From an uncultured Prevotellaceae bacterium (GTDB lineage: Bacteria > Bacteroidota > Bacteroidia > Bacteroidales > Muribaculaceae): 64,000 bases of DNA. The notes beneath the pieces are model-generated. The model made no database searches. It was given only the letters and a program-made list of their open reading frames with translations, and was not told the DNA's origin. Shown in pieces: positions 5,684 to 62,212 of the stretch. The position numbers and the translations under genes were made by a program. The first letter of the stretch is position 1. Every line of letters starts with the position of its first letter. The stretch lies in NCBI GenBank assembly GCA_900317835.1, contig ONIL01000013.1, forward strand, positions 1 to 64,000, written 5' to 3'.

Positions 5684-7408
5684 TTATTTCATCTCGGCAT
5701 CAATCCAGCCCAGAAGCGATACCAACGAGGCATTCCAGTTGATGGCAATTTCGTTGCTGGCATAGGAGCCTGTAACGTCTATGTAGGACTCATCGGGTTG
5801 CCTGGACGGGTAAGGCAGACTGCCGTCGACGTTGTCCTGTTGACCAGGATTGGGGCCGCCGGCGAGAAGGCCGGGCATGGGGGCATCAATACCGTCGGCC
5901 GACGAAATGCGGTGGTGGATGTTCTTGGGGGGCTTGTGGCCATAGCCGGTCACATAGCAGTATCCAGTGGCATTACGGCCTAAAACATAATCGGCATTCT
6001 GGAGGGCTGCTTCATGATATTTCTTGTCGCCCGTGGCACGGTAGCAGTACAGGTGGGCAAGACCACTGGTGCAGAAACACTCGGACAGGCAACCCCAACC
6101 GTAGTCATTGGCATGATTACCGGCGGGCGTATTGAACGACGAGGCCTTCAGAGTCGACAGCTGTTGGTCGCAGTAGCCCAACAACTTGTTGAGCATGAGG
6201 TCACGCATGCCGGTTTTGTCGTCGCCGCAGGTAATCCATGAATACATGGCAAGTCCGGTGACATTTCCCCAACCGGGTTGTGAGAATCCGCGCTCACGCA
6301 AAGGCTGGGCGGCTTTAAGGAAGAACTCGTCGCCCGTGAGCAGGAACAGCTCGGTTGCAGCCCACAAATGTTCGTCGCTGGCATCGTTGTCGCCGTAGGT
6401 ACCTGTGGTCACATCGGGGTCAAACTCCTTGTTCATCTTGTCTTGGTCATAGACGGCCTCAGGATTGAGCTCGGCCCAGTGATAGGCAGCCAAAGCGGCT
6501 TTTTGGGCCTGCTCGGCAAATGCGGGATAGTCTTTGTTGCCCTTGTAGATGCGTGCGGCAAGTGCCATTACAGCAGCAAAGTCATAGCTGGCGGTCACAC
6601 TCTTTTGCACCACATAGCGCTGTTGGTGACAATCGGTGGGCATAACAAAACCCTCGAAATTGGGAGTCGTCAATTTGTGGTAAACGCCTCCGTCATAGGG
6701 GTCCTGCATGGTGATCATCCACTTGAGATTAAACATGAGTTCGTCAAGCAGGTCTGCAGTGCTGTTGCCGCTCTCGGGAATGTCGGCGTTGAGACGATTG
6801 AAATACGCTTTGTTCTGCTCATAGGCCATGAGCATCAGTCCCACCGAATAGGACGAGTTGACGATATACTTGTTGTAGTCGCCGGCATCATACCAGCCTA
6901 GCGGCGAGGATATGATGGTGCCTGCAGGCCGGCCAGGCGAAGCTGCCGATGGATGAATCATGACCTGTGTGTCGGGATGTCCTAAGGGACGGGCATAAAC
7001 ACCAGCATATTTGCCGTCGATGGCAATGCCCGAGCGGTTAAGGTAGAAGGCCTTTAACGCAGCACGGGCTATGTTGTTCAATGCGTGAGGCTGCACGTCA
7101 AAGCGGGTCTTTTGGCCATTGACGCACAGCTCATAGGTGCCGGGGGCGGTAATACCCGTGATTTCGACGATGGTGCGTTTCTTGTTCGACCACGGCGAGG
7201 TGTTGATCCTCAAGGCCTTGGCTTTGCCCACGCGTTTGCCGTCGGCCGTGTTTTTGATGGTCATCTTTTTGGCTTTAGAGCCCTCGATGACAGCGATTTT
7301 GGACTGTTGCGGATAAAATGCAACTTGATTGATTCGGATGCTTTCGCTCTGGGCTGTCAACGTGATGGCAGTCAAGGCTGCAATGGCGAATGTTAACACT
7401 TGTTTCAT
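5684..7408 (-). CDS. GH9 endoglucanase, secreted
   Basis: A glycoside hydrolase family 9 enzyme that should cleave beta-1,4-glucans by inversion. Residues 1-19 are a signal peptide and about 23-105 an N-terminal Ig-like domain (SIRINQVAFYP; YELCVNGQKTRFDV), the CelD arrangement. The (alpha/alpha)6 catalytic domain follows. Asp174 and Asp177 lie in GWYDAGDYNKY, with Asp177 the likely base; Glu553 in SNEIAINWNA is the likely acid, and ANDYGWGCLSE and GYGHKPPKNIHHR are further family motifs. Length 574 is usual. It has neither dockerin nor T9SS-like tail, so it is probably periplasmic or simply exported. Confidence 0.93.
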   Translation of the reverse strand: MKQVLTFAIAALTAITLTAQSESIRINQVAFYPQQSKIAVIEGSKAKKMTIKNTADGKRVGKAKALRINTSPWSNKKRTIVEITGITAPGTYELCVNGQKTRFDVQPHALNNIARAALKAFYLNRSGIAIDGKYAGVYARPLGHPDTQVMIHPSAASPGRPAGTIISSPLGWYDAGDYNKYIVNSSYSVGLMLMAYEQNKAYFNRLNADIPESGNSTADLLDELMFNLKWMITMQDPYDGGVYHKLTTPNFEGFVMPTDCHQQRYVVQKSVTASYDFAAVMALAARIYKGNKDYPAFAEQAQKAALAAYHWAELNPEAVYDQDKMNKEFDPDVTTGTYGDNDASDEHLWAATELFLLTGDEFFLKAAQPLRERGFSQPGWGNVTGLAMYSWITCGDDKTGMRDLMLNKLLGYCDQQLSTLKASSFNTPAGNHANDYGWGCLSECFCTSGLAHLYCYRATGDKKYHEAALQNADYVLGRNATGYCYVTGYGHKPPKNIHHRISSADGIDAPMPGLLAGGPNPGQQDNVDGSLPYPSRQPDESYIDVTGSYASNEIAINWNASLVSLLGWIDAEMK

Positions 7409-9676: not shown

Positions 9677-9699
9677 TACAAGTCATTTGGCTTTCCTTT

Positions 9700-9898: not shown

Positions 9899-9929
9899 TT
9901 TGTGGTTCTAGATAAAAGTGTTAACTTTG
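9899..9929 (+). promoter_or_regulatory. Promoter of the PatB-like gene
   Basis: TTTG (9899-9902), a 19-base spacer and TAACTTTG (9922-9929) fit the Bacteroides consensus exactly. It gives a leader of about 25-30 bases. Confidence 0.75.
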
Positions 9930-9961
9930 TGAGGTGAATACATTATCTATTACAGTACATC

Positions 9962-11149: not shown

Positions 11150-11210
11150 ATGCCGAGGATCGTCGCCTGAATCCGTATTTAAACAGGTTTTGACAAATCG
11201 GTGACGAATA

Positions 11211-11242
11211 TTTGGGAGTATTGTGGTTTTTATGTACCTTTG
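11211..11242 (+). promoter_or_regulatory. Promoter of the class I aminotransferase gene
   Basis: TTTG (11211-11214), a 20-base spacer and TACCTTTG (11235-11242) match the Bacteroides pattern, about 60 bases before the ATG. Confidence 0.7.
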
Positions 11243-11302
11243 CCCGCCGAGAGACAAACTTCATATCATTAACAAAATAAATCAAGCAACTAGAGTAAAA
11301 TT

Positions 11303-23468: not shown

Positions 23469-23780
23469 TCAACGCACCACCACCTTGCGTGACCACTGGT
23501 TGCTGCACTTGACGATATAGAACCCCTTGGGGAAGTCCACCGTCGTGCGTTGATCGGCGCTCACTCGCACCACTTTAACCAATTGACCAGTGATTGAATA
23601 GACATTGAACGTGGCATCAGAATTACCTGCGATAAAGACGATGCGGCCCTCAGCACCTTGCGCAACAGGCCCTGTCACAACGGTCTCGACACGCTGTGGC
23701 AAGAAATTGTCGGGCACAGGCACGGCGCTCATTCCGGCCATAGCCATCAAGCAGATGAATATATGTGCTGCTCGCTTCAT
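23469..23780 (-). CDS. Tiny secreted protein made almost only of a T9SS-like tail
   Basis: 103 residues: a signal peptide (1-19), a short linker and then about 75 residues with the shape of a type A T9SS C-terminal sorting domain (FNVYSITGQLVKVVRV; FPKGFYIVKCSNQWSRKVVVR). There is no room for a cargo domain. It may be an intact miniature protein or the 3' remnant of a larger exported protein re-joined to a signal peptide. A -7 word TATCTTTG stands upstream at 23807-23814. It is followed by cls in the same direction. Confidence 0.6.
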   Translation of the reverse strand: MKRAAHIFICLMAMAGMSAVPVPDNFLPQRVETVVTGPVAQGAEGRIVFIAGNSDATFNVYSITGQLVKVVRVSADQRTTVDFPKGFYIVKCSNQWSRKVVVR

Positions 23781-24053: not shown

Positions 24054-26474
24054 TTACCTTGTGCCGGTCAGCATGTAGTCAACAATTATGGTAACATCAT
24101 CAATGGTAATGCTGCCATCGTAGTTAACATCGGCAGCCACAACATCGATGTTGCCATTGCCCGACAGCATGTAGTCAACAAGAACTACAACGTCATCGAT
24201 GCTTACCACGCCGTCGCCATTAACATCACCCAACATGCTCTCGCCTTGCTTGAGGATCACCTCCCTGGTATTACTCCAAGAACTCTCGGTGTTGTTAACA
24301 TAGAGCGATTTTACACGATACAGATAGGGTGAGTTAGCAAGGAGACCAGTAACCGTGTAGAACTTGTTGGGGGTAATACCCTCAATCAGACGATACTCGG
24401 CATCACCTGTCTCGTTGACACCCCTAAGGACAAAGGGCTCAGGATCGGTAATCTCGCCACCATAAATCTTGATCTTTTGAATCTCGGGATAATAACCAGT
24501 GTTGATCTTGACAGTGGGGTGCTCACCCACCTCGAGAACCACCAGGCAGGTATCGAGCTGCTTGTGCAGAGTGATGGTCTTGGTCTCGAGATCAGTAGAA
24601 ACATTGATAGTGCTGATCGTTCCCTTATGATAGGCTTTACCCACAATAATCACACTCACCTTGTTGTAACCGACGAGGTCACAATGGGGATCAAAGATAC
24701 CATCACGATTGGATGAAACGAAGCCACCATCCAGGTAGAAATGGCTACCCGAGAAGGTCCATCCTTCGGGCAAGTAGTTTGCTGCATCACTGGCATGATT
24801 CTGCGACTCGCTGGGAACATTACTCCAGTCGGCCTCGGTAAGCAGACAAACGTCGGGTTTCAGTCTCACCTCAAGGGTGTAGCTGAGCACGTTCTCGGCG
24901 GGCGTGTTGTCGCTCCAGTCGGCACGGAACGATGTGGCATGCACATAATCCTCAGCAGGATCCAGCATCACGGGGCGATAAAGCTCATAGTCTGAAGTAC
25001 CCTTCAGCGTGATCACGACATCATCAACACCGGCGGTACGGCAAGTTACGGTAGCGGTATAGTTGCCCTCGGTCTTGGGAGCATAGGTAACGGTGATCGT
25101 CTTGTTCACCTTGTTGTCCGCATCCATCTCGATAGCAGTCTCATCGATACTGAAGACTTCGTTCTCATCATTAAGCGTCAACGTCACATTATCTTCCAAG
25201 TTGCGACCCGTCAAGGTGAACTTGGCAGTAGCGGTCTTGTTCTTGTAGCAGCTCATCGACAGTTCGCGGGCATCGGCCTTGAGACGCGGTGAATTGATGG
25301 GAGGCTGGATACCGATAACCATCTGCTGGTACTGATTGAATACCGAACCGCCGCCATTGAAGGCGTTCAAGGCATAGTAGTTGTTGTAATCGCCACTCCA
25401 ACCGAAGTTAATGTGGTACTTGTTAGTAGTAGCATCATAACCGTCAACGTTGAAAGCATGACCACCACCGAACAAACCACCTGCGATAGCGCAGAAAAGG
25501 ATGGGACGGGCCTCGGACAACTCTTCCTGAATAATTGCTGCCCACTCGGCATCAGTGTAGAGCGTGGTTCCACCACTGTAGGAGCTGGTCTTCTTGACCA
25601 CTCGAACAGACTCCTCATCATATCCGAAGAACTTGAAAGCATTAGCCATCAAGATCACACTGTCAGCATTGACACCGCTACCACCGGCAGCACTCGTGCC
25701 ATACTCCATGTGCTCGGCTTGTCCGATGTAGCGCATCAGCGTGGCCACAGCATTGGCTTGAGTTGTGTTGTAGCCACTGGTATATCTGTCAAGCATATTA
25801 TCCCAATCAAACGTAACAGGAGGCAGGGGGCCAACATTAACATAGCTGCCGCCATAGTAGCTCGTGCTCAGGTAGCAACGATAGCCAGGAACCTCGGGAG
25901 TTTGGAAATCGGGATATTTCCAGTAATGGAAAATCAGCGCTGCCGACGTGGCAGGGCATCCCGTCAAGCACTGGGAACCGTTAATATTACACATGTTCCA
26001 GTAGGGAGCTTCCTGATCCCACAGTGCGGTCAGCAGGGGCTCAACACTGGGAATGCGCAACGACGGAGCCATCATCGACGGAGTCTCGACCACCATGCCC
26101 TCATTAGCTTGCAAATACTCGATCTGAACCTTGTAAGTTGCCAGCCAAGCCTTCATGTTGCAAGGAATTTTGTTGATGTCGATTTGTGCATCGCCATAAC
26201 CCAGGATTTCCTCAGCACGGTCATCACCCGAAACGATGACATAGCCATTACTAGTGTTAAAGATGTAATAAACCGCGCGGTCAAGCATCTTGGAATTCAT
26301 TTCCACATGAGCCAACTGGAGGTTTCCTGCCAGGGGAGCCATCAAGCGACCCGAATAGGCTTTCTCATTCACAAACCGCTGCGCCTTGGCAATTGCGGTG
26401 TTCACATCGACAGGTGCTGCCGACAACTGAATTGCCGCAAACAATAATGCGGCCAATAAAAAGATTCTTCTCAT
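24054..26474 (-). CDS. C10-family cysteine protease with dockerin pair (1 of 6)
   Basis: A streptopain-like secreted protease of 806 residues. A signal peptide (1-19) precedes an inhibitory I69/Spi-type propeptide (about 20-130; YIFNTSNGYVIVSGDDRAEEILGYG). The catalytic domain has Cys173 (CLTGCPATSAAL) and His339 (GGHAFNVDGYD); the usual Asn-Trp of HINWGW reads Asn356-Phe357. About 395-485 are an Ig-like domain. A split Fn3-like unit (SFRADWSDNTPAENVLSYTLEV) encloses a beta-rich insert, and a second Fn3 edge follows (YRVKSLYVNNTESSWSN). Residues 747-806 are the dockerin pair (GDVNGDGVVSIDDV; ADVNYDGSITIDDV). It is divergent from the only plus-strand family member. Confidence 0.9.
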   Translation of the reverse strand: MRRIFLLAALLFAAIQLSAAPVDVNTAIAKAQRFVNEKAYSGRLMAPLAGNLQLAHVEMNSKMLDRAVYYIFNTSNGYVIVSGDDRAEEILGYGDAQIDINKIPCNMKAWLATYKVQIEYLQANEGMVVETPSMMAPSLRIPSVEPLLTALWDQEAPYWNMCNINGSQCLTGCPATSAALIFHYWKYPDFQTPEVPGYRCYLSTSYYGGSYVNVGPLPPVTFDWDNMLDRYTSGYNTTQANAVATLMRYIGQAEHMEYGTSAAGGSGVNADSVILMANAFKFFGYDEESVRVVKKTSSYSGGTTLYTDAEWAAIIQEELSEARPILFCAIAGGLFGGGHAFNVDGYDATTNKYHINFGWSGDYNNYYALNAFNGGGSVFNQYQQMVIGIQPPINSPRLKADARELSMSCYKNKTATAKFTLTGRNLEDNVTLTLNDENEVFSIDETAIEMDADNKVNKTITVTYAPKTEGNYTATVTCRTAGVDDVVITLKGTSDYELYRPVMLDPAEDYVHATSFRADWSDNTPAENVLSYTLEVRLKPDVCLLTEADWSNVPSESQNHASDAANYLPEGWTFSGSHFYLDGGFVSSNRDGIFDPHCDLVGYNKVSVIIVGKAYHKGTISTINVSTDLETKTITLHKQLDTCLVVLEVGEHPTVKINTGYYPEIQKIKIYGGEITDPEPFVLRGVNETGDAEYRLIEGITPNKFYTVTGLLANSPYLYRVKSLYVNNTESSWSNTREVILKQGESMLGDVNGDGVVSIDDVVVLVDYMLSGNGNIDVVAADVNYDGSITIDDVTIIVDYMLTGTR

Positions 26475-26569
26475 AAATAACTGGTTATTAAATTAATGAT
26501 TCTTTGCTTCAGTCTGTTAATGCTGATATAAAAACGTATAAAAAGGGCTTACTGCCCCGAATACATTTG

Positions 26570-26600
26570 CAAATTTACACCAAATTCAGTAAAACAGCAA
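26570..26600 (-). promoter_or_regulatory. Promoter of C10 protease gene 1
   Basis: On the minus strand TTGC (26597-26600), a 19-base spacer and TAAATTTG (26570-26577); the leader is about 90 bases. Confidence 0.65.
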
Positions 26601-26769
26601 CAACTTGCTAAAAAAGTGAACAAAAAACTTTCATTCAGCCAAAAAAATTTTGAAAACTGATATCCAAAAACAACTGATAACAAACGGTGTACCAAAACTA
26701 TCTTTTTCAGTCAATTCAATTTTGGTATCTATAATTTTGCGACTCTTTTTTAATAAATTGTGCTGTGTT

Positions 26770-26803
26770 TTTGACAATTCCTGCAAAAAAGTACTTACCT
26801 TTG
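26770..26803 (+). promoter_or_regulatory. Promoter of C10 protease gene 2
   Basis: TTTG (26770-26773), a 22-base spacer and TACCTTTG (26796-26803). The transcript would start near 26810, leaving about 205 bases of leader. Confidence 0.6.
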
Positions 26804-27015
26804 CAGCGCGAAAGGAATGAGAATCAAGGATACTACTTTACATATTGTGGGTTCTTACGGCAAGTGATACTACTCTCGTTTAATGTTTTTCCCACATGAT
26901 GTCAGAGTCAATGTTTATCAGGTGATTCCTGAGCATTCATCGTGTCTTTTCGCATATAAATTAGATATTATTAGTATTATTAATGTTATATTTTCTTTTC
27001 TTATAAACTTTTACT

Positions 27016-28752
27016 ATGAGGAAGTTTTTATTAGTAATGTCAGTGCTTGCGCTTTTCACGCAGGGCATTGAATCAAAGAGTGTCACCATGGATCAGGCCA
27101 AGGCTATTGCACAGCAGTACACCTCATCCCACCAGACGCTGAAGAGCAGTAACGCTGACCTCAAGTTGTCCCATGTGGGCAGGAACTTGAAGGGCATGAA
27201 CGATTACTATGTATTCAACCGCGAAGGCAATCAGGGTTTCGTCATCGTTGCCGGTGATGATGCTTCAACTCCCATTCTGGGTTACAGCACCTCGGGCTCA
27301 TTTGACATGAAGAATGCCCCCGAGACCTTGAAGCTTATCCTTGACGAGTACCAGGATTATCTGGAATGGTTGCGTCACAACCCCCAGAAGGCCCAGGCTC
27401 CCCGTCTCACTTACGACCTGCAGCCCTATGGCGTGTATCCTATCTGTGGTGAGGTTCACTGGCATCAGTTCCCTCCCTACAACAACAACTGCCCTCGTTC
27501 ATCTCATGCATTGACCAGCAACGGCCGTTGCTATGCTGGTTGTGTACCTGTTGCCTTCTCAACAATCATGAAGGGCCTGAGGTACCCGTCACGCGGCTTT
27601 GGCGAGTTTGGTTATAACTACGAGTTGGATGGCAATCAGATGACCGCTTTTGCGAAGTTTGGCGACTATCCTTACAATTACTCTCAGATGAAGAATGGTT
27701 ATGGTGAAAACGCTTCCAATGCTCAGGCCGTTTCTGAGCTGGTCTATGAGGTAGGTGTAGCTTTCCACACTATCTATTCAGGCGAGAGCAGCGACGCTCT
27801 GCTCAGGAATGTGTTCCGCGGCATCATCGCTTTCTTTGACTTCAACGCCAACATCCAGTACGTTCAGAAGTCCAGCTACGCTTACAACGAGCAGGCTTGG
27901 TATGACATGATGTACAACGAGATCGACAATGGCCGTCCCATTTATTACACGGGCTACAGGACCATCGACAACGAAGGCAACAACTGCAACATCGGTCACG
28001 CCTTTGTGCTGGACGGTTATGACAGCAACGGAAAGGTACACATCAACTGGGGTTTCCAGCCCGAGGAGTACAATACCTATTTTGATTGGGAACTGTTGTC
28101 ACCGAGGAGCAACTACGAGTACGACCCCTATAAGTCAGGTTTCAATGCCAACCAGGCTGCCATCATCGGCCTGTGCCCAGATACTACCGGCATTGGTGGC
28201 GTTGTCGTTAAGAACGTGAATCTGGTGGCTGACACCATGCCCGCCGACGACCTGCGCGCTACCATCGACGTGCAGTCACTGAGCGGAACCTGGAGCGGCT
28301 CCTTGAGGTACGGTATCGTTTCGAAGAGTGTATCGGGTACTACCGTTACTTACAGCCCTGTATATTCCAATGTAACTACTGTCAATATTGATGAGGATGG
28401 CGGCATCGCCAACATCGACCTGTCGGGCGCTTATCCCAGCCTGCGCAATGGTCAGACCTATTACATCGTTGTCTGGACTCCTTACTTCAACTACAGCTAT
28501 GACTGGATGTGGTTCCTGGATGATCCCGTGCCCTTCACTGTAGGTGACTGGGTAACTCCTCCCGATCCCCAGTTCCTCCTGGGTGATGTAAATGGCGACG
28601 ACACTGTCAACATTTCTGATGTTTCTGCCCTTATTGACCTGGTCCTGAACAATGGTGACTACAACCCTGCTGGTGACATGGACAGTGACGGACAGATAAG
28701 CATCCAGGACGTGACTCTGCTCATCGATTATGTTTTAGCAGGTGGCAACTAA
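27016..28752 (+). CDS. C10-family cysteine protease with dockerin pair (2 of 6), short form
   Basis: The most divergent and shortest family member (578 residues) and the only one on the plus strand. Signal peptide 1-20; propeptide about 22-125 (YYVFNREGNQGFVIVAGDDASTPILGYS). The catalytic domain has Cys176 (CYAGCVPVAFSTIM) and His328 (IGHAFVLDGYD), then HINWGFQPEEY in place of HINWGWSG. Only one beta-sandwich region (about 395-510) separates it from the dockerin pair at 519-578 (GDVNGDDTVNISDV; GDMDSDGQISIQDV). It lacks the Ig/Fn3 insert array of the other five. It has a long leader and a strong terminator. Confidence 0.88.
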   Translation: MRKFLLVMSVLALFTQGIESKSVTMDQAKAIAQQYTSSHQTLKSSNADLKLSHVGRNLKGMNDYYVFNREGNQGFVIVAGDDASTPILGYSTSGSFDMKNAPETLKLILDEYQDYLEWLRHNPQKAQAPRLTYDLQPYGVYPICGEVHWHQFPPYNNNCPRSSHALTSNGRCYAGCVPVAFSTIMKGLRYPSRGFGEFGYNYELDGNQMTAFAKFGDYPYNYSQMKNGYGENASNAQAVSELVYEVGVAFHTIYSGESSDALLRNVFRGIIAFFDFNANIQYVQKSSYAYNEQAWYDMMYNEIDNGRPIYYTGYRTIDNEGNNCNIGHAFVLDGYDSNGKVHINWGFQPEEYNTYFDWELLSPRSNYEYDPYKSGFNANQAAIIGLCPDTTGIGGVVVKNVNLVADTMPADDLRATIDVQSLSGTWSGSLRYGIVSKSVSGTTVTYSPVYSNVTTVNIDEDGGIANIDLSGAYPSLRNGQTYYIVVWTPYFNYSYDWMWFLDDPVPFTVGDWVTPPDPQFLLGDVNGDDTVNISDVSALIDLVLNNGDYNPAGDMDSDGQISIQDVTLLIDYVLAGGN

Positions 28753-28788
28753 TCAAACGATCCTAAGAATTATATTCTAACTTAAATA

Positions 28789-28822
28789 ACTGTGCTGGAA
28801 GCATCGATGCTCCCAGCACAGT
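28789..28822. terminator. Terminator between converging C10 genes 2 and 3
   Basis: ACTGTGCTGG and CCAGCACAGT enclose a second, self-complementary stretch AGCATCGATGCT; T-rich sequence follows on the plus strand. It lies between the stops of both genes and may serve both. Confidence 0.8.
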
Positions 28823-28858
28823 TTCATTTAAGCCAGTAAAGACAACGATCGAGCCTCA

Positions 28859-31216
28859 TCAGTTGCCCGAGAGCAACAAGTCGATGAGCGCCGTCACATC
28901 AGCGATGTTAACCGCATTGTCGCCATCCACGTCGGCGCAGATGATGCATGAGGCTGTGCCAGTGCTCAGCAGCATGTCGATAAGTTCCGTTACATCAGCG
29001 ATATTGACTGAATGATCATGGTTCACATCTCCTGTGCTGAAGCCATGCCCATTATCCACGAGCGTCACCAGCTGGCTATCGCTCCAGTCGCTCTCAGTAC
29101 CATCGATGTAGTGAGCCTTGACCTGATAGAAGAACGAGCCACCCGCAGCGAGGTTATTGACAGTGTAGGACTTGCCTGTAATGCCTGTAATCAAGCGGTA
29201 GTTCTCGTCGCCACTCTCACTGGACTTGAACGATGCGCCTGTTGCATCGCCAGCATAGATCTGTATCTTCTGGATCATGGGATAGTATCCGGCCTTGAAG
29301 GAGATCTGATCACCCTCGGCACAATCCAGCACAACCGATGTCGTGGCATAACTGAAGGGGAACTCAATCGTCTGGCTAGCCAGGCTCGTCGAGATGGTGA
29401 GTTCCGACGGATCACCCCAGTAACCGTAGCTGCGCGCAGTCACTACAACAGTCACTTTGTCATAACCCATGAGGTGGAGGGCATCGGTGGTGATGACACT
29501 GTTGCGACGGGGCACAATGCAGCCACCTTCAAGGTTCAGTTCTGTTCCTGTGAAGCCCCACCCGTCGGGCAGATAATCGGTAGCGTGTGAGGCCTGATTG
29601 CTTGGTGACATGGCAGGCAGCGAGCTGAAATCGGCTTCCTCGAGCAACAGGTAGTCGGGCTTGGCGCTTACCTCGAGAGTGTAACTAACCACATTGGCGG
29701 CTGGCGTTTCGTCACTCCAGTCGGCACGGAAGGATGTCAAGCTGATGTTGGACCCGTTGGCCGGTAACATAACGGGCTGATAAGTCTCGAGCGGTGCACT
29801 CCCGTTCAAGAAAATAGTCAAGGGGTCGGCATCCTGCGAGCGACAAACGATTGTAGCGGCATGAGTCCCCATTGCATTAGGAGTATAGGTAACAGTAATG
29901 TCCTGGCCTCCTTCGGCAGCAGCACTGGCCACTACAGTCGCATCTAGGCCGAATACACCGTCGGCATCATTGAGCGTCAAGGTCACGTCGCCAGTCAGGT
30001 TGGTTCCCTTGAGGCGGAAAGTAGCTGTAGCGGGCTTACCCACGTAGGCATTCATGTCAATGACACTGGGATAGGCCTGCAAGCGAGGATTCTCATAACC
30101 CTCAGGTGGCTGGATACCGATAACCATCTGCTGGCCAGTACCGAAAGTGTAGTCATTATAGGTGAACGCATTCAAGGCGAAGTATCCGTTACCACGGCCT
30201 TCCCAACCCCAGTTAATGTGGTAGGTGTCGGCGGCAGCGTCATAGCCATCAACGTTGAACGCATGACCCGAGCCCGTGTAATTATCATAAGCGCAATAGA
30301 CAATGGGACGTCCCGCCTCAAGTTCAGCCTGGATCAGGTTACCCCACTGGGCGTCACTGTAGTTGGCAGAGCCCAAGTCATCGGTTTTGAACAGGAGTTG
30401 TGCATCCTGATCATACTCGAAGTACTGGACTGCCCTGAGGACATCCTTGCCGTAGGCACCACTGCCACTGATGGTGTAGTCCATTTCCTCGACCTGGCCG
30501 ATGTAACGCATCAGGTGAGCAACAGCGGCAGCCTGGACCTCGTTATAACCATGAGTGTAATCATCGAGCATATTGGCCCAGTCAAAGATCGTGGGAGGCA
30601 ACTCAGGCAACACCGTAGCATAGGTCGGCAACATGTAGGACGGAGCGGCAGGCGTCTGCTGTCGCGGATATTTCCAGTAATGGAACACCATCGACAACGA
30701 GGTGGCTGGGCAACCCGTATAACAGGTGTCGGTGCCAAAGACGGGACATTCATTCCAGTAGGGTGCGCCTTGACTCCAGTTGGCTGTAATCAAGGGATCA
30801 ACCGACTGTCCAGCACGTTGGGGAAGGCTTACTTTCACGCCTGGATTAGCCTGCAAATATTCAAGCTGACGCTTGTAGTAGGCGAGCCAGAATTCCATAT
30901 TCTCTGGCAGGTTGGTCATATCGATGTCACAGTCGCCATAAGCCAGAATTTCCCTGGCACGGTTCTCACCGGCCACGATGACAAAACCATTGCCCAGATT
31001 ATAAACGTAATATACAGGCATGGCACCGTTCATTGAGTTCATCTCGACGTGGGTGAGTTTGAGGTTCCCTGGCACAGGGGCCATCTTGTGACCCGCAGCA
31101 GCCCGACTGGACACGAAACGTTGCGCTATAGCTGTGGCTGAAGCTTCATCGACATTGGCCGACTGGACTTGGGCTATAGTGAGCAGGAATGCTGCAATAA
31201 CAAGCAATCTTCTCAT
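28859..31216 (-). CDS. C10-family cysteine protease with dockerin pair (3 of 6)
   Basis: A 785-residue streptopain-like protease. Signal peptide 1-19; propeptide about 20-130 (YVYNLGNGFVIVAGENRAREILAYG). Catalytic Cys169 (CYTGCPATSLSM), His318 (GSGHAFNVDGYD) and an intact HINWGWEG. An Ig-like domain (about 375-465), a split Fn3-like unit around a beta-rich insert and an Fn3 edge follow. Dockerin pair at about 726-785 (GDVNHDHSVNIADV; ADVDGDNAVNIADV), with a CIIC motif between the two loops. Its start lies 41 bases after the stop of gene 4 with no terminator between, so the two are likely one transcript. Confidence 0.9.
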   Translation of the reverse strand: MRRLLVIAAFLLTIAQVQSANVDEASATAIAQRFVSSRAAAGHKMAPVPGNLKLTHVEMNSMNGAMPVYYVYNLGNGFVIVAGENRAREILAYGDCDIDMTNLPENMEFWLAYYKRQLEYLQANPGVKVSLPQRAGQSVDPLITANWSQGAPYWNECPVFGTDTCYTGCPATSLSMVFHYWKYPRQQTPAAPSYMLPTYATVLPELPPTIFDWANMLDDYTHGYNEVQAAAVAHLMRYIGQVEEMDYTISGSGAYGKDVLRAVQYFEYDQDAQLLFKTDDLGSANYSDAQWGNLIQAELEAGRPIVYCAYDNYTGSGHAFNVDGYDAAADTYHINWGWEGRGNGYFALNAFTYNDYTFGTGQQMVIGIQPPEGYENPRLQAYPSVIDMNAYVGKPATATFRLKGTNLTGDVTLTLNDADGVFGLDATVVASAAAEGGQDITVTYTPNAMGTHAATIVCRSQDADPLTIFLNGSAPLETYQPVMLPANGSNISLTSFRADWSDETPAANVVSYTLEVSAKPDYLLLEEADFSSLPAMSPSNQASHATDYLPDGWGFTGTELNLEGGCIVPRRNSVITTDALHLMGYDKVTVVVTARSYGYWGDPSELTISTSLASQTIEFPFSYATTSVVLDCAEGDQISFKAGYYPMIQKIQIYAGDATGASFKSSESGDENYRLITGITGKSYTVNNLAAGGSFFYQVKAHYIDGTESDWSDSQLVTLVDNGHGFSTGDVNHDHSVNIADVTELIDMLLSTGTASCIICADVDGDNAVNIADVTALIDLLLSGN

Positions 31217-31257
31217 GTGGTATTTATTTGGTTTTCAGTTGATTTATGGTTTGTGGA

Positions 31258-33381
31258 TCAATTGCCGCCCAGCACCATGTCGATGAGGGCAGTCACGTCA
31301 GCAATATTGACAAGGCCGTCCACCTTGACATCAGCGCAGATGTCACAAACGCTGCCTCCACCCAGCACGAAGTCAATCAAGTCGGTCACGTCCTTGATGT
31401 TGATGCTGTAGTCGTGGTTTACGTCACCCAGGTCAAAGCCGTGGGGAGCGGGACCGTTGTCATACAGGGTTACCGTCCCGATGTTGCTCCAGGCGCTTTG
31501 GGTGCCGTTTGCATAGTATGCCTTTACCCTATAGGTGAATGATCCGCCCTCAGCCAGACCTGTCACGGTGTAGAATTTGTTGGTGATGTCGGTAATGATG
31601 CGGGAATTGTCGTCGGTCTTAACGGGAACCGAGAGTACTTTCTTGGCGACATCAGGGGTGGCACTATAGATATCCACCTGGGTGATGATGACGCGCTTTC
31701 CTCCATCTACGGTAGCGAATGTGACCTTCTGGTTCTCATCGGCCTCACAATCCAGGATAATGGTCTGAGTGGACTCAGCAGTCACCGTAATCGTGGTGAT
31801 GCTGGTGCCGCAAGAAATCGTGACAGGTACATTGGTGTCGTTGCTGTAGGGCTTAATGTTAGCGACAATGGTCATCTTGCCACCGCTCTGGGTCATATTC
31901 AAGGCCGGTGTAGTGATTGAGCCATTCCTGTCGGCATTGCCAAGGCGCAAGCCACCTTTAGCCTCATAGGCGCGGGTACCCGTCCAACCCTGATTTTCAC
32001 AATAGTTGTTGAAATTGCTGATAGCGGTGTTGCTGGAACTCGTGCAATAGGGGAAAGACTCGCTGAAGACCTTCTCATACACACCCGGTTCACTGCCGTC
32101 ATCGGTTTTCACCTCCAGGGTATAACTGGTCACATTCTCGGCAGGGGTCTCGTCTGTCCACTCGGCACGGAACGAGGTTAATGTGATGTAGTCTTCATTG
32201 GCAGGCTGCATCACCGGGTCATAGGACTCGATGGGGGCAGGAGGTTCGATACCCATCACCATCAGCTGTCCCAATCTGTAGTCATTACCCTGGTTAGAGA
32301 ATGCATTGAGGACAAAATAACCGTTACCGGTGCCACTCCAGCCCCAGTTAATGTGGTAGGTTCCGTCCACGGCGTTATAACCATCCACATTGAAGGCGTG
32401 GCCATAATAGCCGTCATAGGCCGAACTGTAGGAAATTGCACAGTAAACCACAGGACGCCCAGCGACAAGTTCAGTCTGGATCATTTCACTCCACTCATCA
32501 TCCTCGATGAGAACACTATCCAAGCCGCTGGCATACAGTATTGACTTGTAGGTAACTTGAGCCCCAACGTAACCGAAGGTATGGCAAGCCCTGAGAATAT
32601 CTTCCTCATGAGCCTCAGCCCACTGATTGGTGTAGTCCATTTGCTCAGCCTGACCAATGTAGCGCATGAGCTGGGCCACAGCATTCTTATTGATGTCAGT
32701 ATAATGGCCAAAGGTATAGACGGGAAGAATATTCTCCCAGTCAAAGGTCACTGAGGGCAGCGCGTCAAGGACAAGTCCCCAAGTGTCGGTGGTGTAACCG
32801 GGAATCACAGGAGTTGGAGTGGTGGGATATTTCCATTTATAGAACACCTGAGCCAGCGAGGTGGCGGCACAACCGGTCTGAGCACGCACGTCGCCTGTCA
32901 TGGGACACTGGGCATAGTATGGCGAGCCCTGGTCCCACAGGGCTTCAATCATGGGTTCTACCGTCACGCCAAGGTTAGCCTTGAGAGCGGGTTTTTCAAT
33001 CTTCATGCCTGGATGGGCTTGAAGGTATTCCATCTGCGACTTGTAATAACCCAGCCACGCTTTCATGTTCTCGGGGATTGCGTTCATGTCAAGGTTTTCC
33101 TCGCCATAGGCCAGGATTTCCTGAGCACGGTCGTCACCGGCTACAATGACAAAGCCCTGGTCGGTATTGACGACGTAATAGGCAGTTTGGTTGGCACGTG
33201 ATGAGTTCATTTCCTGATACACCCACTTGACAGCAGGCCTGGAAGCGTTCAAGTGACCACTTGCAGCGCGATTTAGCAAAAAGTCACATGCCTTGCCACG
33301 GGCAGTCGTTAAATCAACAGGGGCAGCCATCATGTGAAACGCCACCATCACCAAGGTGGCAAGAGTAAGCATTTTTTTCAT
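31258..33381 (-). CDS. C10-family cysteine protease with dockerin pair (4 of 6)
   Basis: 707 residues. Signal peptide 1-19; propeptide about 20-130 (YYVVNTDQGFVIVAGDDRAQEILAYG). Catalytic Cys171 (AQTGCAATSLAQVF), His328 (YGHAFNVDGYN) and a full HINWGWSGTGNGYF motif, the closest here to the classical streptopain pattern. The Ig-like domain present in members 1, 3, 5 and 6 is missing: the Fn3-like unit (SFRAEWTDETPAENVTSYTLEV) follows the protease directly. Its beta-rich insert also differs. Dockerin pair at about 648-707 with CDIC between loops. The last 200 coding bases are almost identical to those of gene 5. Confidence 0.9.
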   Translation of the reverse strand: MKKMLTLATLVMVAFHMMAAPVDLTTARGKACDFLLNRAASGHLNASRPAVKWVYQEMNSSRANQTAYYVVNTDQGFVIVAGDDRAQEILAYGEENLDMNAIPENMKAWLGYYKSQMEYLQAHPGMKIEKPALKANLGVTVEPMIEALWDQGSPYYAQCPMTGDVRAQTGCAATSLAQVFYKWKYPTTPTPVIPGYTTDTWGLVLDALPSVTFDWENILPVYTFGHYTDINKNAVAQLMRYIGQAEQMDYTNQWAEAHEEDILRACHTFGYVGAQVTYKSILYASGLDSVLIEDDEWSEMIQTELVAGRPVVYCAISYSSAYDGYYGHAFNVDGYNAVDGTYHINWGWSGTGNGYFVLNAFSNQGNDYRLGQLMVMGIEPPAPIESYDPVMQPANEDYITLTSFRAEWTDETPAENVTSYTLEVKTDDGSEPGVYEKVFSESFPYCTSSSNTAISNFNNYCENQGWTGTRAYEAKGGLRLGNADRNGSITTPALNMTQSGGKMTIVANIKPYSNDTNVPVTISCGTSITTITVTAESTQTIILDCEADENQKVTFATVDGGKRVIITQVDIYSATPDVAKKVLSVPVKTDDNSRIITDITNKFYTVTGLAEGGSFTYRVKAYYANGTQSAWSNIGTVTLYDNGPAPHGFDLGDVNHDYSINIKDVTDLIDFVLGGGSVCDICADVKVDGLVNIADVTALIDMVLGGN

Positions 33382-33457
33382 GTTGTTTGGTTTTAAAGTG
33401 TTTATTAGGTTACAGTTAAGTATTGTTAAGCAATCACAAGGGTAATATGTTTTTAAA

Positions 33458-33496
33458 AAAGCGTGACAAAGTTGAATGTGCCCTTTGTCACGCTTT
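33458..33496 (-). terminator. Terminator of C10 protease gene 5
   Basis: AAAGCGTGACAAAG and CTTTGTCACGCTTT form a 14-base perfect stem, followed on the minus strand by a T run. It separates gene 5 from genes 4-3. Confidence 0.88.
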
Positions 33497-33521
33497 ACTT
33501 TAGATGATATCAGCTCGTGGA

Positions 33522-35936
33522 TTAGTTGCCGCCCAGCACCATGTCGATAAGGGCAGTCACGTCAGCAATATTGACAAGGCCGTCCACCTTGACATCTGCG
33601 CAGATGTCACAGACGCTGCCACCACCCAGCACGAAGTCAATCAAGTCGGTCACGTCCTTGATGTTGACGCTTTGGTCGTGGTTCACGTCACCCAGGTCAT
33701 AGCCATGGGGCGCGGGACCGTTGTCAAACAGGGTTACCATCTCGACGTTGCTCCAAGCGCTCTCGGTGCCGTCGTTGTAAAGGGCCTTTACCTTGTAAAG
33801 GAAGGTACCGCCGGCCTCAAGGTTCTCGACAGTGTAATGCTTGTCGGTGATACCGGTAATGGTGCGCTGGGTGGTGTTACCTTCCTCAACAACTGCGCGC
33901 AGCTGCGGAGCGGTCACCTCACCCAAATAGATCTTGATCGTCTGAATCGTAGGATTGTTCTCTACCGAGTAGAAAGTGATCTGATCCTGATCGGCGCAAT
34001 CCAGGACAACGGTATATTCATCATAGTCGCTGGTCAGCGTAAAGGTCTCGGAATCAAGGCTAGACATCACAGTGAGTTTTGCCTGCTGCCACGACCAGTA
34101 ATAGTAATTCTTGGCCGTGAATACAACGGTCACCTTGTTAACGCCAGTGAGGTCATAGGTGTTGGTGCGGATATAGCTTTCACCGGTGATGGCGATACCG
34201 CCCTCGTCAAAGAAGATGGAATAGTCGCCAACGGTCCAGCCCTCAGGCAGGTAGGCCTGGGCATTGCCCGAACCCGTGCTCCAGTCCACCTCGGCGAGCA
34301 TACCGCCGGATGCGGGCTTCTGGTTCACCTCGAGGGTGTAGCTGGCCACATTCTCGTTGGCAGTCTGGTCGGTCCAGTCGGCACGGAACGAGGTCAAGTT
34401 GATGTAAGCGCTGTCGGCGGGCAGCATGACGGGATTGTACACCTCGAGCGGAGCATTGGTGGCAGTGCCCTTGAGGTTGATGACCACGTCGGTGGCACCC
34501 TCGCTGCTCAAGGTAATGGTAGCGTTGTGGACGCCAACAGCCTGGGGAGCATAGGAAACGGTAACAGTCTTGCCCAGTTCATCAAGAGCTACTGTTGTAG
34601 CATCGACAGTGAACACGCCATTTGTATCGCTGAGGGTTACAGTGATGTTACCCGTCAGGTAATTACCCGACACGTCGAAGGACGCAGTAGCGGTCTCACC
34701 AACATAGGCCTCGACGCTCAAGTCACGGGTCGAAGTGAGGATGCGGGGATCGGTAGAGATGCCGGGAGGCTGTACACCGGCAAACAGGATGGGCCAGAAG
34801 TCGTAAACCGTGAAATCGTCGATCTGGAAAGCATTGAGCGCATAGTAAGCATTCAACTCAGCGCGCATACCGAAGTTCACATGATACATGTCACTATTGG
34901 CATCATAGCCGTCGATGTTGAAGGCGTGGCCACCAATTGAAGCCGAGTCTGTCGACATGTCATTGGCACAATAAACCAGAGGACGACCAGCACGCAGCTC
35001 CGACTGGATCAGCTCGCCCCATTCCTGGTCGTTGTAAAACTCGTGGCCATCGTGAGCGGTGTCGCCGGTGAAATCGGGAGAATCATACTTCTTGGCGATG
35101 TATGCGCCCTCATCGTACTCAAAAAAGCGAATGGCATTCAGGATCTTGAAGTTATCGGTACCACTCCTGAGCACGTTATAGTCAATGGTCTCGGCCTGGC
35201 CCACATAGCGCATCAGCCATGCGATAGCATCCTTATTCACGTCAGGCAACTGGTCGGTGTTATTGCTGTATGCGGCATAGGAGTCCCACATGTTCTCCCA
35301 GTCAAAGGTGTACTCGGGCAGGGCGGTAACTTGGATTCCAGACTCAGGGCATGTATAGGCAGGCATGGCAGCCGACTTCTCGGGATATTCCCAATACTTC
35401 ATCACCTGGGCCAGCGCGTTGGCGGTACAACCCACCATGCAATAATCGCGGCCCACGCGGGGACATCTCATGTTGTAGGGCTTACCCTGTCCCCACTCGG
35501 TTGTCAGCATCGGCTCAACCGATACGCCACCACGGTTTGTACGCTTCTCGACCAAGAGGCCCGGATGAGCCTGTAGGTACTCCATCTCAGCCTTATACAG
35601 ATTCAGGAAGAACTGCATGTTGTCGGGGATGTCGTTAAGATCGGTAAGGGGTCGATCACCATAGGCGAGGATTTCCCTTGCACGGTCATCACCAGCGACA
35701 ATGACATAGCCACGGTCGGTGTTGACGATGTAGTAAGCAGCCATAGCGACATTGCTTGAGTTCTTCACCTCATGGGTCCACTTCACGGTGGGAGCCGAGG
35801 TCATCATACGGCCTTGAGGGGCCTGTTTAAGCAAGAAATCAGCAGCCTTGGTCTGGGCTGTCGTCAAATCGACATTACCAGCTAAAGCCTGCATCGCCGC
35901 AAACAAGAGAGCGGCAAGAAACAGCATTTTTTTCAT
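33522..35936 (-). CDS. C10-family cysteine protease with dockerin pair (5 of 6), altered active-site region
   Basis: 804 residues. Signal peptide 1-19; propeptide about 20-130 (YYIVNTDRGYVIVAGDDRAREILAYG). Catalytic Cys170 (CMVGCTANALAQVM) and His337 (GGHAFNIDGYD) are present, but HINWGWSG reads HVNFGMRA, so both tryptophans of the motif are lost. An Ig-like domain (about 400-490), a split Fn3-like unit and a beta-rich insert follow. Dockerin pair at about 745-804 (GDVNHDQSVNIKDV; ADVKVDGLVNIADV) with CDIC between the loops. It may have altered specificity or reduced activity. Own terminators lie upstream and downstream, so it is likely monocistronic. Confidence 0.88.
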   Translation of the reverse strand: MKKMLFLAALLFAAMQALAGNVDLTTAQTKAADFLLKQAPQGRMMTSAPTVKWTHEVKNSSNVAMAAYYIVNTDRGYVIVAGDDRAREILAYGDRPLTDLNDIPDNMQFFLNLYKAEMEYLQAHPGLLVEKRTNRGGVSVEPMLTTEWGQGKPYNMRCPRVGRDYCMVGCTANALAQVMKYWEYPEKSAAMPAYTCPESGIQVTALPEYTFDWENMWDSYAAYSNNTDQLPDVNKDAIAWLMRYVGQAETIDYNVLRSGTDNFKILNAIRFFEYDEGAYIAKKYDSPDFTGDTAHDGHEFYNDQEWGELIQSELRAGRPLVYCANDMSTDSASIGGHAFNIDGYDANSDMYHVNFGMRAELNAYYALNAFQIDDFTVYDFWPILFAGVQPPGISTDPRILTSTRDLSVEAYVGETATASFDVSGNYLTGNITVTLSDTNGVFTVDATTVALDELGKTVTVSYAPQAVGVHNATITLSSEGATDVVINLKGTATNAPLEVYNPVMLPADSAYINLTSFRADWTDQTANENVASYTLEVNQKPASGGMLAEVDWSTGSGNAQAYLPEGWTVGDYSIFFDEGGIAITGESYIRTNTYDLTGVNKVTVVFTAKNYYYWSWQQAKLTVMSSLDSETFTLTSDYDEYTVVLDCADQDQITFYSVENNPTIQTIKIYLGEVTAPQLRAVVEEGNTTQRTITGITDKHYTVENLEAGGTFLYKVKALYNDGTESAWSNVEMVTLFDNGPAPHGYDLGDVNHDQSVNIKDVTDLIDFVLGGGSVCDICADVKVDGLVNIADVTALIDMVLGGN

Positions 35937-36097
35937 AAATAGCTTGTTAATGGTTAATAGTGATTATTTAAACAAGTGTTGTAGTATCCTTCTGCTTTAG
36001 AAGCCGCTAAATTAGTAATAAAAAACGATAGTATCATCTTTTTTTTCAACAAATTGCATAGGAAAACGCGCTTTTAGCGGCATTTTCATAAAAAAAC

Positions 36098-36128
36098 GGT
36101 CCAGGCTCGCCGTAACCAAGCCTGGACC
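36098..36128 (-). terminator. Terminator of C10 protease gene 6
   Basis: GGTCCAGGCT and AGCCTGGACC form a 10-base perfect stem followed on the minus strand by GTTTTTTATG. Confidence 0.88.
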
Positions 36129-36150
36129 CTAAACATCTATTGGCTAATTA

Positions 36151-38544
36151 TCAATAGCTCAATAACAACAAATCAATGAGGTAACTGACATCAGCGATAT
36201 TTACCAGTCCATCAGGCTTGACATCAGCGCAGATGGGGCAAACCTCTTCGCCTGAAAGCACGGCATCAATCAATGCTGAGACATCCTTGATATTGAAACT
36301 GCCGTCATGATTGACATCGCCCAAATCGAAACCATGGCCGTTCTCATAGAGCGTAATGTTCTGGATATTGCTCCAAGCGCTCTCGGTTCCGTCGATATAC
36401 TGAGCCTTTACCCTGTAATAGAATGTTCCTCCAGCCTCAAGATTCTTCACGGTGTAGAACTTGTCGGTAATGCCGGTAATGAGACGCTGAGTGGTATCAC
36501 CCTCCTCGGCAACCTCTCTCATTTTCGCGGGATCAAGTTCGCCGGCATAAATCAGGATCTTCTGAATCATGGGGTAGTAACCGGCAGTGAAGACGATATT
36601 CTCGGTATCACCGCATTCGAGCACGGCAGTATAGTCAGTAAACTCGGTCGTTCCAGTGAACGTCTCGCTCCCCTTGCTGGTGGCCACCGAGAGGGTGGCT
36701 GCAGTATAGGAACTCCAACTCTTGAAGGTCACAACCACCGTCACCTTGTCATAACCGCTCAGGTCAAACGTCGGTGTGGTGAGCGTGCAACCGCTGGAGG
36801 GCTCGATGCTGGCGCCATCCAGCCACAAGCCTGAGCCTTCAAAGGTCCATCCCTCAGGTATCAGCTCACTGGCCCTGGAAGCCTGATTGCCGCTTTCGGC
36901 AGGATAGTCGCTGAAGTCGGACTCCGAGATGAGCTGGGTGCCAGGCTTGGTGCCGACCATCAAAGTATAACTTGATACATACTTGGCATCCGTCAAGTCA
37001 GTCCAGTCAGCACGGAACTCGGTAAGGTTGATATAGGCGCTGTCGGCGGGTAACATCACGGGCTTGGTGGCATCAATAGTGGCATTGCCGTTGATGGTGA
37101 CAACCTTGTCGTCAGCATCAGGATTGCTCAAGGTTATGGTTGCGCTGTGATTGCCGCTGGTCAACGGGGCATAAGTCACGGTGATAACCTTGCCGTCCTC
37201 AAGATCGCTGACAGCAACACTGTTGGCGTCCATCGAGAAGTAGCCGCTCTCGTCGTTGAGCATCAACGTCACGTCGCTGGTGAGTTCTTTACCCTTGACG
37301 GTAAAGGTGGCAGTGGTGGACTGGTCAACATAGGTTTCCATTTCCAACCTGGAGGGTGACACCTTGATTGAGGGACCATTGACAGGAGGCTGAATACCCA
37401 TAACCATCTGCTGCTCAATATTAAAGGTATAGCCGCTTGAGGAGAATGCGTTAAGGGCAAAATCACCATTGCCGTCACCGCTCCAACCCCAGTTCACATG
37501 ATAAGTGTTGGTGTTGGCCGTATAGCCGTCAACATTGAAAGCGTGTCCACTCCAGCCATACCACATTGAGTAGTCATAGGCACAGTAAACCACAGGGCGT
37601 CCCTCGGCTAACTCATTCTGGAGCAGGGCTGTCCATTCGTCATCGGTGTAATACACTGCAGTGTCGTTACCAGCGTCATCAGTCTTGGTCTTAAAGACCA
37701 GTTCGGCCGTCTCCTCGTCATAGCCGAAGAATTTGACAGCACGCAGGATGTCCTCGCCCATGGCACCGCTCGCACTCGGAGCGTAGTCCATTTGCTCTGC
37801 CTGGCCGATATAGCGCATCAACCATGCCACTGCATCGGATTGGGTAGTATTGTAGTTGCCATAGGTGTAGATATCGAGCATGTTATCCCAATCAAAGGTA
37901 ATTGAAGGCAATGCAGGCACCACAATGCTGTTGGTCTCGGTAGTATAACCCTCGACCTCGGGTGTGGGATCAGTGGGATACTTCCAGTAGTAGAACACCA
38001 TCGACAGCGAGGTGGCGGGACAACCCGTCAGGCAACGTGAGCCGTTATAGGTGGGACACTGGTTATAATAGGGAGTACTCTGGTCCCACATAGCCGTCAA
38101 CATGGGGGCCACGGTGGTCGCCTTGAGGGATTTATTCATTCGAGACGTGTTGCTCTCGACTTCCATTCCAGGATGAGCCTGGAGATACTCGATCTGTTTC
38201 TTATAGGTGCTCAGCCAGAACTTCATGTTGTCTGGCATACGCTTCAAGTCCAGCGGTTTGTCACCATAGGCAAGGATTTCCTGGGCTCGGTCGTCTCCAG
38301 CGACAATCACAAACCCCCTATCGGAATTAAAGATGTAATAGACCGCTTGATCGGCGTGTGTGGAGTTGACTTCGGTGCTGATTAACTTCAGATTGGTCAT
38401 TGGAAGGCCATTGAAACGTTGGGTAGCACTGTTACCCATCATGAACCGTTGTGCCGAGGCCTGGGCCTGAGCCAAATTGACATTGGCAGCCGAGACCTGT
38501 ATCACAGCGAGCAGCATGATAGCAAAGAAGAATAATTTTCTCAT
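36151..38544 (-). CDS. C10-family cysteine protease with dockerin pair (6 of 6)
   Basis: 797 residues. Signal peptide 1-19; propeptide about 20-135 (YYIFNSDRGFVIVAGDDRAQEILAYG). Catalytic Cys175 (CLTGCPATSLSM), His334 (SGHAFNVDGYT) and HVNWGWSGDGNG intact. An Ig-like domain (about 395-485), a split Fn3-like unit (EFRADWTDLTDAKYVSSYTLMV) around a beta-rich insert and an Fn3 edge follow. Dockerin pair at about 738-797 (GDVNHDGSFNIKDV; ADVKPDGLVNIADV), with CPIC between the loops. Most similar in layout to members 1 and 3. It lies downstream of the TonB-like gene but separated by that gene's terminator. Confidence 0.9.
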   Translation of the reverse strand: MRKLFFFAIMLLAVIQVSAANVNLAQAQASAQRFMMGNSATQRFNGLPMTNLKLISTEVNSTHADQAVYYIFNSDRGFVIVAGDDRAQEILAYGDKPLDLKRMPDNMKFWLSTYKKQIEYLQAHPGMEVESNTSRMNKSLKATTVAPMLTAMWDQSTPYYNQCPTYNGSRCLTGCPATSLSMVFYYWKYPTDPTPEVEGYTTETNSIVVPALPSITFDWDNMLDIYTYGNYNTTQSDAVAWLMRYIGQAEQMDYAPSASGAMGEDILRAVKFFGYDEETAELVFKTKTDDAGNDTAVYYTDDEWTALLQNELAEGRPVVYCAYDYSMWYGWSGHAFNVDGYTANTNTYHVNWGWSGDGNGDFALNAFSSSGYTFNIEQQMVMGIQPPVNGPSIKVSPSRLEMETYVDQSTTATFTVKGKELTSDVTLMLNDESGYFSMDANSVAVSDLEDGKVITVTYAPLTSGNHSATITLSNPDADDKVVTINGNATIDATKPVMLPADSAYINLTEFRADWTDLTDAKYVSSYTLMVGTKPGTQLISESDFSDYPAESGNQASRASELIPEGWTFEGSGLWLDGASIEPSSGCTLTTPTFDLSGYDKVTVVVTFKSWSSYTAATLSVATSKGSETFTGTTEFTDYTAVLECGDTENIVFTAGYYPMIQKILIYAGELDPAKMREVAEEGDTTQRLITGITDKFYTVKNLEAGGTFYYRVKAQYIDGTESAWSNIQNITLYENGHGFDLGDVNHDGSFNIKDVSALIDAVLSGEEVCPICADVKPDGLVNIADVSYLIDLLLLSY

Positions 38545-62083: not shown

Positions 62084-62121
62084 CCTGTAATCATTTAAGA
62101 TTAGTGTTATGCTTTTAAAAG

Positions 62122-62156
62122 TCAGGCGGCGAGGCCATTGTGGCCTCACCGCCTGA
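62122..62156 (-). terminator. Terminator of the membrane pyrophosphatase gene
   Basis: TCAGGCGG and CCGCCTGA enclose an inner GAGGCC/GGCCTC stem; on the minus strand CTTTTAAAA follows. Confidence 0.85.
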
Positions 62157-62212
62157 GGATTATTGACGGGGGCTCGCAAAAAGCCCTTAATGGGAGCAGT
62201 TCATTGGTGGAA

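Follow-up and report, generated by a model that had tools for sequence, protein, structure and literature searches.

Why should six secreted cysteine proteases that are encoded side by side in a Bacteroidales genome each end in a dockerin? The question is raised by positions 24054–38544 of contig ONIL01000013.1 from an uncultured Prevotellaceae bacterium, of which a stretch of 64,000 nucleotides (the window) was analyzed. Our preferred answer, to which we give a probability of about 55%, is that the dockerin serves as a general docking tag of the secretome of this lineage, that the six proteases belong to its cargo and that the cohesins expected to receive it are few. A sequence-only reading of the window had proposed a protease assembly, a "proteolysome," and had seen no cohesin.

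The array consists of six C10 (streptopain-like) protease open reading frames (ORFs), five on the minus strand and one on the plus strand, with intergenic gaps of 541, 106, 41, 140, and 214 bp. All six match Peptidase_C10 (140–170 bits; Pfam cut-off 26) as well as the propeptide family Inhibitor_I69 (64–83 bits; cut-off 25), possess the catalytic Cys and His from which C10 activity is predicted, have a signal-peptide-like start as judged by eye and carry at the C-terminus a two-loop dockerin that is predicted to bind calcium. ORFs, Pfam matches and inspection by eye thus bear out the sequence-only description of these genes. Dockerin_1 scores above the Pfam cut-off (22.9) in four members (31.3, 28.6, 32.3, and 23.0 bits) and below it in those starting at 31258 (15.5 bits) and 33522 (16.6 bits), where two loops were recognized by eye. 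These two proteases have in common a C-terminal stretch of 256 nt, 92% identical and covering the dockerin, such as a local conversion would leave behind. In loop 2 of the members at 31258, 33522, and 36151 a Lys occupies the third calcium-ligand position, and the motif H[IV]N[WF]G[WF] of the remaining five members reads HVNFGM in the 33522 protein. Four of the six have a CxxC motif just ahead of the second loop, possibly a disulfide clasp; in relatives the motif lies between the loops in 75 of 120 C10 dockerins versus 15 of 39 dockerins outside this group, which may include some fragments of C10 genes.

The tag extends far beyond the array. The genome to which the window belongs (G000; 3.07 Mb, 65 contigs, 96% complete) has at least 149 matches to Dockerin_1 (PF00404) at E ≤ 1, 143 of them above the cut-off, with 150 of 226 candidates scored; these are matches, and one protein may hold several. 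At E ≤ 1 nine of 14 named control genomes also matched, two of them above the cut-off, and at 1e-4 one of 14 did so. Among the 24 C10 matches of the genome three are cut by contig ends and one is a fragment, and a dockerin ends every one of the 20 with a visible C-terminus. A sample of 32 further dockerin proteins, from which known C10s were left out and in which many ORFs are incomplete at the locus edge and some members are mutually related (up to 56% to the first), was of mixed content: among the families listed were leucine-rich-repeat (LRR) proteins (6), M6 peptidases (3), FGE-sulfatase (2), endonuclease I (2) and CotH (2), with one match each to GHL10, NAGPA, amylase, and flavodoxin. When the 32 were aligned every invariant column fell within the dockerin, and in 34 of the 43 sampled dockerin ORFs with a closed 3′ end (44 ORFs sampled) the second loop begins at most 40 aa from the stop. 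The dockerin is not a protease-specific feature but a general tag on secreted proteins, and because so many kinds of secreted protein bear it the array is best described as a cargo cluster within a general system. An assembly dedicated to proteases would explain why all 20 C10s and three M6 peptidases are tagged; it sits badly with the tagging of LRR proteins, nucleases, CotH, FGE-sulfatase, amylase, and others and with the small number of cohesins, and we consider it very improbable. What stands of the sequence-only proposal is assembly through dockerins as such, which is favored by the tagging, by the cohesin-like domains and by the partner-selected pattern described below, whereas the restriction to proteases is not supported. 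In the 59 family genomes searched, the three of the same genus have at least 88, 88, and 71 dockerins, with no more than 89 candidates scored, one of another genus (G001) has 31, and the other 55 have 0–7.

The dockerin sequences carry signatures that are specific to the genome. Distinct dockerins were compared from six genomes (G000, 60; G017, 19; G060, 15; G059, 14; G001, 11; G040, 8), those of the other genomes being drawn from the best-scoring matches listed and not at random, which may overstate uniformity within a genome. The excess of within-genome over between-genome identity peaks at positions 17 (0.68) and 18 (0.60). At positions 10, 11, 17, 18, and 22 the mean excess is 0.46, a value reached by 45 of the 6188 sets of five that can be drawn from the 17 non-ligand positions. 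In other species the same five positions (PMC3413522), or the first four of them (PMC4081043), are described as putative cohesin-recognition residues; these and the other publications cited here were available as excerpts, to which our statements about them refer. In G040, a member of the same genus, 10 of 20 fetched dockerins (L308–L317) are identical over 55 aa while their DNA differs at synonymous sites only, with differences in 569 of 1167 fourfold-site comparisons. Upstream of the dockerin just one of the 45 pairs of host proteins matches at E < 0.1 (34% over 167 aa). The hosts comprise a C10 protease with I69, proteins with LRR_5, CBM26, CHB_HEX_C_1, or DUF4886, and five in which the dockerin is the only family recognized; in all ten the dockerin ends at the stop or two residues earlier. 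As identity over 55 aa occurs alongside silent change in the DNA, the uniform tag speaks for selection on its protein sequence, and its presence on C10, LRR, and CBM26 proteins alike again argues against a dedicated "proteolysome." In A. cellulolyticus, by comparison, no two dockerins are identical (PMC3413522). It is likely that the dockerins of these genomes behave as though a shared partner selects them.

Candidates for such a partner were found in the genome. A profile (A1) built from four cohesin-like domains of the genome gave six strong matches there, namely its four seeds and two new domains, and a second profile (A2) gave the same six. No cohesin was detected within the window at the thresholds used for PF00963 (Pfam Cohesin) and for the cohesin-like profiles, in line with the sequence-only reading, for which a genome without cohesins would have been part of a refutation; in the genome the more sensitive profiles found six strong cohesin-like domains. 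Of the 59 genomes searched with A2, 24 were hand-picked for a search with a further profile (A5) and nine for one with PF00963. PF00963 scored above its cut-off in four of the nine relatives, all eight such places being A5 matches too; in a control it matched in 2 of 14 genomes, above the cut-off in one. Five of 25 single A5 members matched Pfam Cohesin (best 8.6e-5), and A5 matched 23 PDB sequences, 12 of them titled scaffoldin or cohesin and four NagJ, with a best E of 0.0058, the sole one below 0.01, and the remainder at 0.17 or weaker. The stretch of NagJ that was matched is presumably its cohesin module. Since PF00963 passes in relatives, members match Pfam Cohesin and the PDB matches point the same way, the profile family appears to be a cohesin family, and the genome likely encodes candidate cohesin partners for the dockerin tag.

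Several observations weigh against a docking tag received by cohesins. PF00963 gives only two matches in the genome, both below threshold (best 17.3 bits; cut-off 24.1), the better one lying in an LRR-dockerin protein, C-terminal to the dockerin. The second place (C22, L002) was missed by the cohesin-like profiles and was dropped as a candidate. G040 has six A5 matches but none to PF00963, and G001 (85% complete), with its 31 dockerins, has no match to A2, A5, or PF00963. For well over 100 dockerins the genome has six strong cohesin-like domains, and at most two of the six occur in one protein (C40), where a scaffoldin would have many; with 149 dockerin matches to six such domains, a large scaffold is not indicated. 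Positions 9, 14, and 20 of the dockerin also differ between genomes (0.57, 0.51, and 0.46), much as several of the named recognition positions do, and the sampled G000 dockerins are the least uniform of the six genomes, with a mean loop identity of 0.55 and none of 1770 pairs identical (n = 60). Two cohesin proteins of the genome end in a tail, called A6 below, that is not recognized as a tail of the type IX secretion system (T9SS). Finally, dockerin-poor relatives hold cohesins as well, and on our reading of the matches 6 of their 10 listed dockerins are in the same frame as a cohesin.

From this last observation, dockerin and cohesin may originally have paired inside a single protein. The order dockerin-cohesin-tail recurs. 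Conceivably a dockerin binds a cohesin only when both belong to the same polypeptide, the pair acting as a stability clamp triggered by calcium, and all other tags are partnerless caps for stability or folding. A folding cap, however, needs no genome-specific signature, and an identical 55-aa tag on unrelated proteins asks for a shared reader, so that we hold this explanation to be rather improbable. The dockerin may also act in calcium-dependent folding or anchoring without a partner, an alternative that the sequence-only reading had raised.

The C10 orthologues L093 (from G060) and L099 (from G059) are identical at 676 of 715 positions (95%) ahead of the dockerin and at 25 of 55 within it. 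Each carries the dockerin type of its own genome, given that all 28 loops sampled from G059, including those of the C10 itself, read YN or YS at positions 17–18, as against none of 30 from G060 (15 loci each). The C10 proteases L099:9980–12340 and L103:8210–10549, the latter a third near-copy, are identical at 725 of 727 positions up to a junction, after which the former has a dockerin and the latter an A6 tail; the corresponding DNA is 99.45% identical over 4181 bp, and this identity breaks off at L099:12183, some 10 nt inside the dockerin. As identity stops near the module boundary, the C-terminal module appears to have been exchanged as a unit. The first dockerin pattern flagged 85 of 125 C10-like ORFs of relatives with a closed 3′ end, and by eye the 40 unflagged ones comprised 27 dockerins, 11 A6-like tails and 2 with neither. 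A6 is enriched in the genus, with 24, 29, and 37 matches in its three genomes and 0–7 in nine others (12 genomes, hand-picked from the 59).

That nearly identical proteases may end in a dockerin or in A6 raises the alternative that an export machine, perhaps the T9SS, recognizes the dockerin as a signal for secretion or sorting, so that it would stand in for another C-terminal tail and would not dock to a cohesin. A T9SS is present, as the genome encodes SprA (2631 bits) and three PorU-like proteins (961, 697, and 684 bits; cut-off 420), and a streptopain homologue is listed among TIGR04183 proteins of S24-7 (Muribaculaceae) genomes (PMC4936053). Nine members of A6, on the other hand, matched no Pfam family and in NCBIfam gave just one weak match in one member (NF047423, E 0.04). 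The assignment of A6 as a T9SS sorting domain was rejected, having no support from Pfam or NCBIfam and a probability of 1.5% in an alignment with T9SS tails. None of the six array proteins has a Por_Secre_tail at E ≤ 0.1 in Pfam, neither of the two array proteins covered by the NCBIfam scan has TIGR04183, and the 10 Por_Secre_tail matches of the genome are all below threshold. An export signal would fit poorly with an enrichment of between-genome divergence at named cohesin-recognition positions, with cohesin-family domains in the same genus and with dockerins that are internal or N-terminal. We therefore regard a sorting signal as unlikely, while ranking it ahead of the stability clamp.

From the domain content, the genome-wide tagging, the cohesin-related family, the signatures and the module exchange, all of them seen in sequence, we infer binding, surface location, a role for the T9SS and an order of events for the docking tag as follows. 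Each protease would be exported as a zymogen, by means of its signal peptide and with its I69 propeptide, after which the calcium-folded dockerin would be caught by one of the few cohesin-domain proteins (in this genome two on C28 and those on C5, C40, and C16). Cohesins located on the cell surface would hold the proteases there together with other cargo. They are placed on the surface because a T9SS type A sorting domain forms the C-terminus of some cohesin proteins in relatives; compared with TIGR04183, nine cohesin-protein tails gave two above the cut-off (G040 and G010), five below it and two without a match, including L141 of this genome. A fuller version would see a Gram-negative cohesin-dockerin surface assembly, i.e., a rumen Bacteroidales genus that uses the dockerin as an address tag of its secretome with a code that changes between species, a few cryptic cohesin receptors some of which are delivered by the T9SS, tandem cysteine proteases as prominent cargo, and whole C-terminal modules whose swapping gives a protease the code of its host genome. 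We put this forward tentatively, at somewhat less than even odds.

The array itself is likely old and kept. Apart from the divergent protease at 27016–28752 its paralogues are 40–52% identical to one another, while one relative (L061) has four orthologues in the same order at 69–82% identity, including those of 28859–31216 (82%) and 36151–38544 (79%), and it is this comparison on which the estimate of age rests. Another relative (L074) has five orthologues in nearly the same order. Relatives of the 24054–26474 protease are 74–76% identical (L064, L062, and L074) and one of the 33522–35936 protease is 86% identical (L111). The divergent member has 25–31% identity to four other array members, no match to 31258–33381 at 1e-20, and its closest match in the genome at L147 (37%). 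The relatives are metagenome-assembled genomes (MAGs); their titles give Muribaculaceae, Prevotellaceae, Porphyromonadaceae, Bacteroidaceae, or Bacteroidales and in many cases name a ruminant source.

Coordinates of the array, of the other features of the window and of related features elsewhere are collected in Table 1. Outside the array the window holds four more dockerin genes, which the sequence-only reading had left unmentioned. Dockerins near the N-terminus with other domains after them were seen at L003:757–1782 and L028:1414–3153, where these domains are FGE-sulfatase-like by eye, and, as half a dockerin, at 4490–5260 of the window.

Table 1. Location of the C10 protease array, its neighbors in the window, and cohesin-like, A6 and PorU-like features of this and related genomes.
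Feature	Location	Strand	Remarks
C10 protease, 806 aa	24054..26474	-	signal peptide, Inhibitor_I69, Peptidase_C10 (Cys173, His339), further modules, dockerin 24057-24230
Divergent C10 protease, 578 aa	27016..28752	+	shorter region between catalytic domain and dockerin; dockerin 28582-28749
C10 protease, 785 aa	28859..31216	-	dockerin 28862-29032, CIIC between loops
C10 protease, 707 aa	31258..33381	-	dockerin 31261-31428, CDIC between loops
C10 protease, 804 aa	33522..35936	-	dockerin 33525-33692, CDIC between loops
C10 protease, 797 aa	36151..38544	-	dockerin 36154-36321, CPIC between loops
Cohesin-like	C28		two LRR-dockerin-cohesin-tail proteins
Cohesin-like	C40		580-aa protein: cohesin-dockerin-cohesin-dockerin-dockerin
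Cohesin-like	C5		signal peptide-cohesin-tail protein
Cohesin-like	C16		179-aa ORF, cohesin alone; adjoined by CotH-like dockerin protein
A6 tail	L103:10379-10546		example
A6 tail on two cohesin proteins of this genome	C28:91980-92144, C5:1-153
Three PorU-like proteins, one 12-kb stretch	L137:67-3618, 5169-8630, 8775-12242		C16 of this genome; NF033707 above cut-off
Secreted protein, 452 aa	897..2255	-	C-terminal dockerin, 32.7 bits
256-aa protein	4490..5260	-	half a dockerin right after signal peptide, 22.7 bits (cut-off 22.9)
GH9 cellulase	5684..7408		window
LRR protein, 916 aa	15234..17984	-	dockerin near C-terminus, 40.1 bits
103-aa protein adjoining array	23469..23780	-	signal-peptide-like start and T9SS type A sorting domain, TIGR04183 31.1 bits (cut-off 23)
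613-aa ORF	60338..62179	-	internal dockerin 32.6 bits, then ~290 aa

The system outlined here resembles the clostridial cellulosome, with its type I dockerins and cohesins and its scaffoldins, in having two-loop dockerins, probable cohesin-family domains and species-typical residues at dockerin positions 10, 11, 17, 18, and 22 (PMC3413522). It differs in belonging, by its relatives, to the Bacteroidales, in having few cohesins and in a mixed cargo with many proteases; the dockerins are not found mainly on carbohydrate enzymes, given a mixed sample of 32 and 20 C10s, and the GH9 cellulase of the window has no dockerin match, though the C10 proteases of the same genome carry the tag. Another comparison is with the Firmicute Ruminococcus albus. 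That species is similar in having 58–90 dockerin proteins but 0–1 cohesin per strain and predicted recognition residues that are uniform, and dissimilar in the CBM37 modules that are proposed to anchor its proteins to the cell (PMC4081043). The Limousia mucinolysome is likewise a cohesin-dockerin system with several dockerin-bearing peptidases, although in a Gram-positive bacterium and with scaffoldins of several cohesins (PMC12997984). In Clostridium perfringens single cohesins on enzymes, as in NagJ and others, bind the dockerins of other enzymes (PMC12997984), and chains of NagJ are among the weak PDB matches of A5; C. perfringens, however, has five cohesin proteins, few dockerins and other cargo.

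Muribaculaceae C941, possibly the group to which this genome belongs, was reported to have dockerins "but without cohesion" (PMC9863278); here, in contrast to that report, a more sensitive profile detected cohesin-family domains, and the tagged proteins were examined as well. In Prevotella the C10 peptidases are one of the abundant families, and dockerins are not mentioned in the excerpt of that publication (PMC9045265). For dockerins in the PULs of rumen Bacteroidetes no role is said to have been defined so far (PMC7480376), and in another study the genome analyzed had neither domain, which was called consistent with other Bacteroidetes (PMC5831590). More recently 78 Bacteroidetes MAGs with both dockerin and cohesin were listed and said to need further investigation, in an article according to which no cellulosome has been described outside Firmicutes (PMC12997984, 2026). 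Peptidases with dockerins are not new in themselves, having been described in R. flavefaciens (PMC2930009; PMC3573020). In the open-licence literature, as far as its excerpts extend, we found neither a dockerin-tagged C10 array nor a tested cohesin-dockerin system in Bacteroidales.

With candidates for the cohesins, a code specific to each genome and naturally swapped pairs, the present data open the question to a simple binding test. They give hints of a surface assembly system that has so far been described only in quite different bacteria. If this is true, cohesin-dockerin assembly would work on an outer membrane and would serve the breakdown of protein, and it may then bear on nitrogen use in ruminants.

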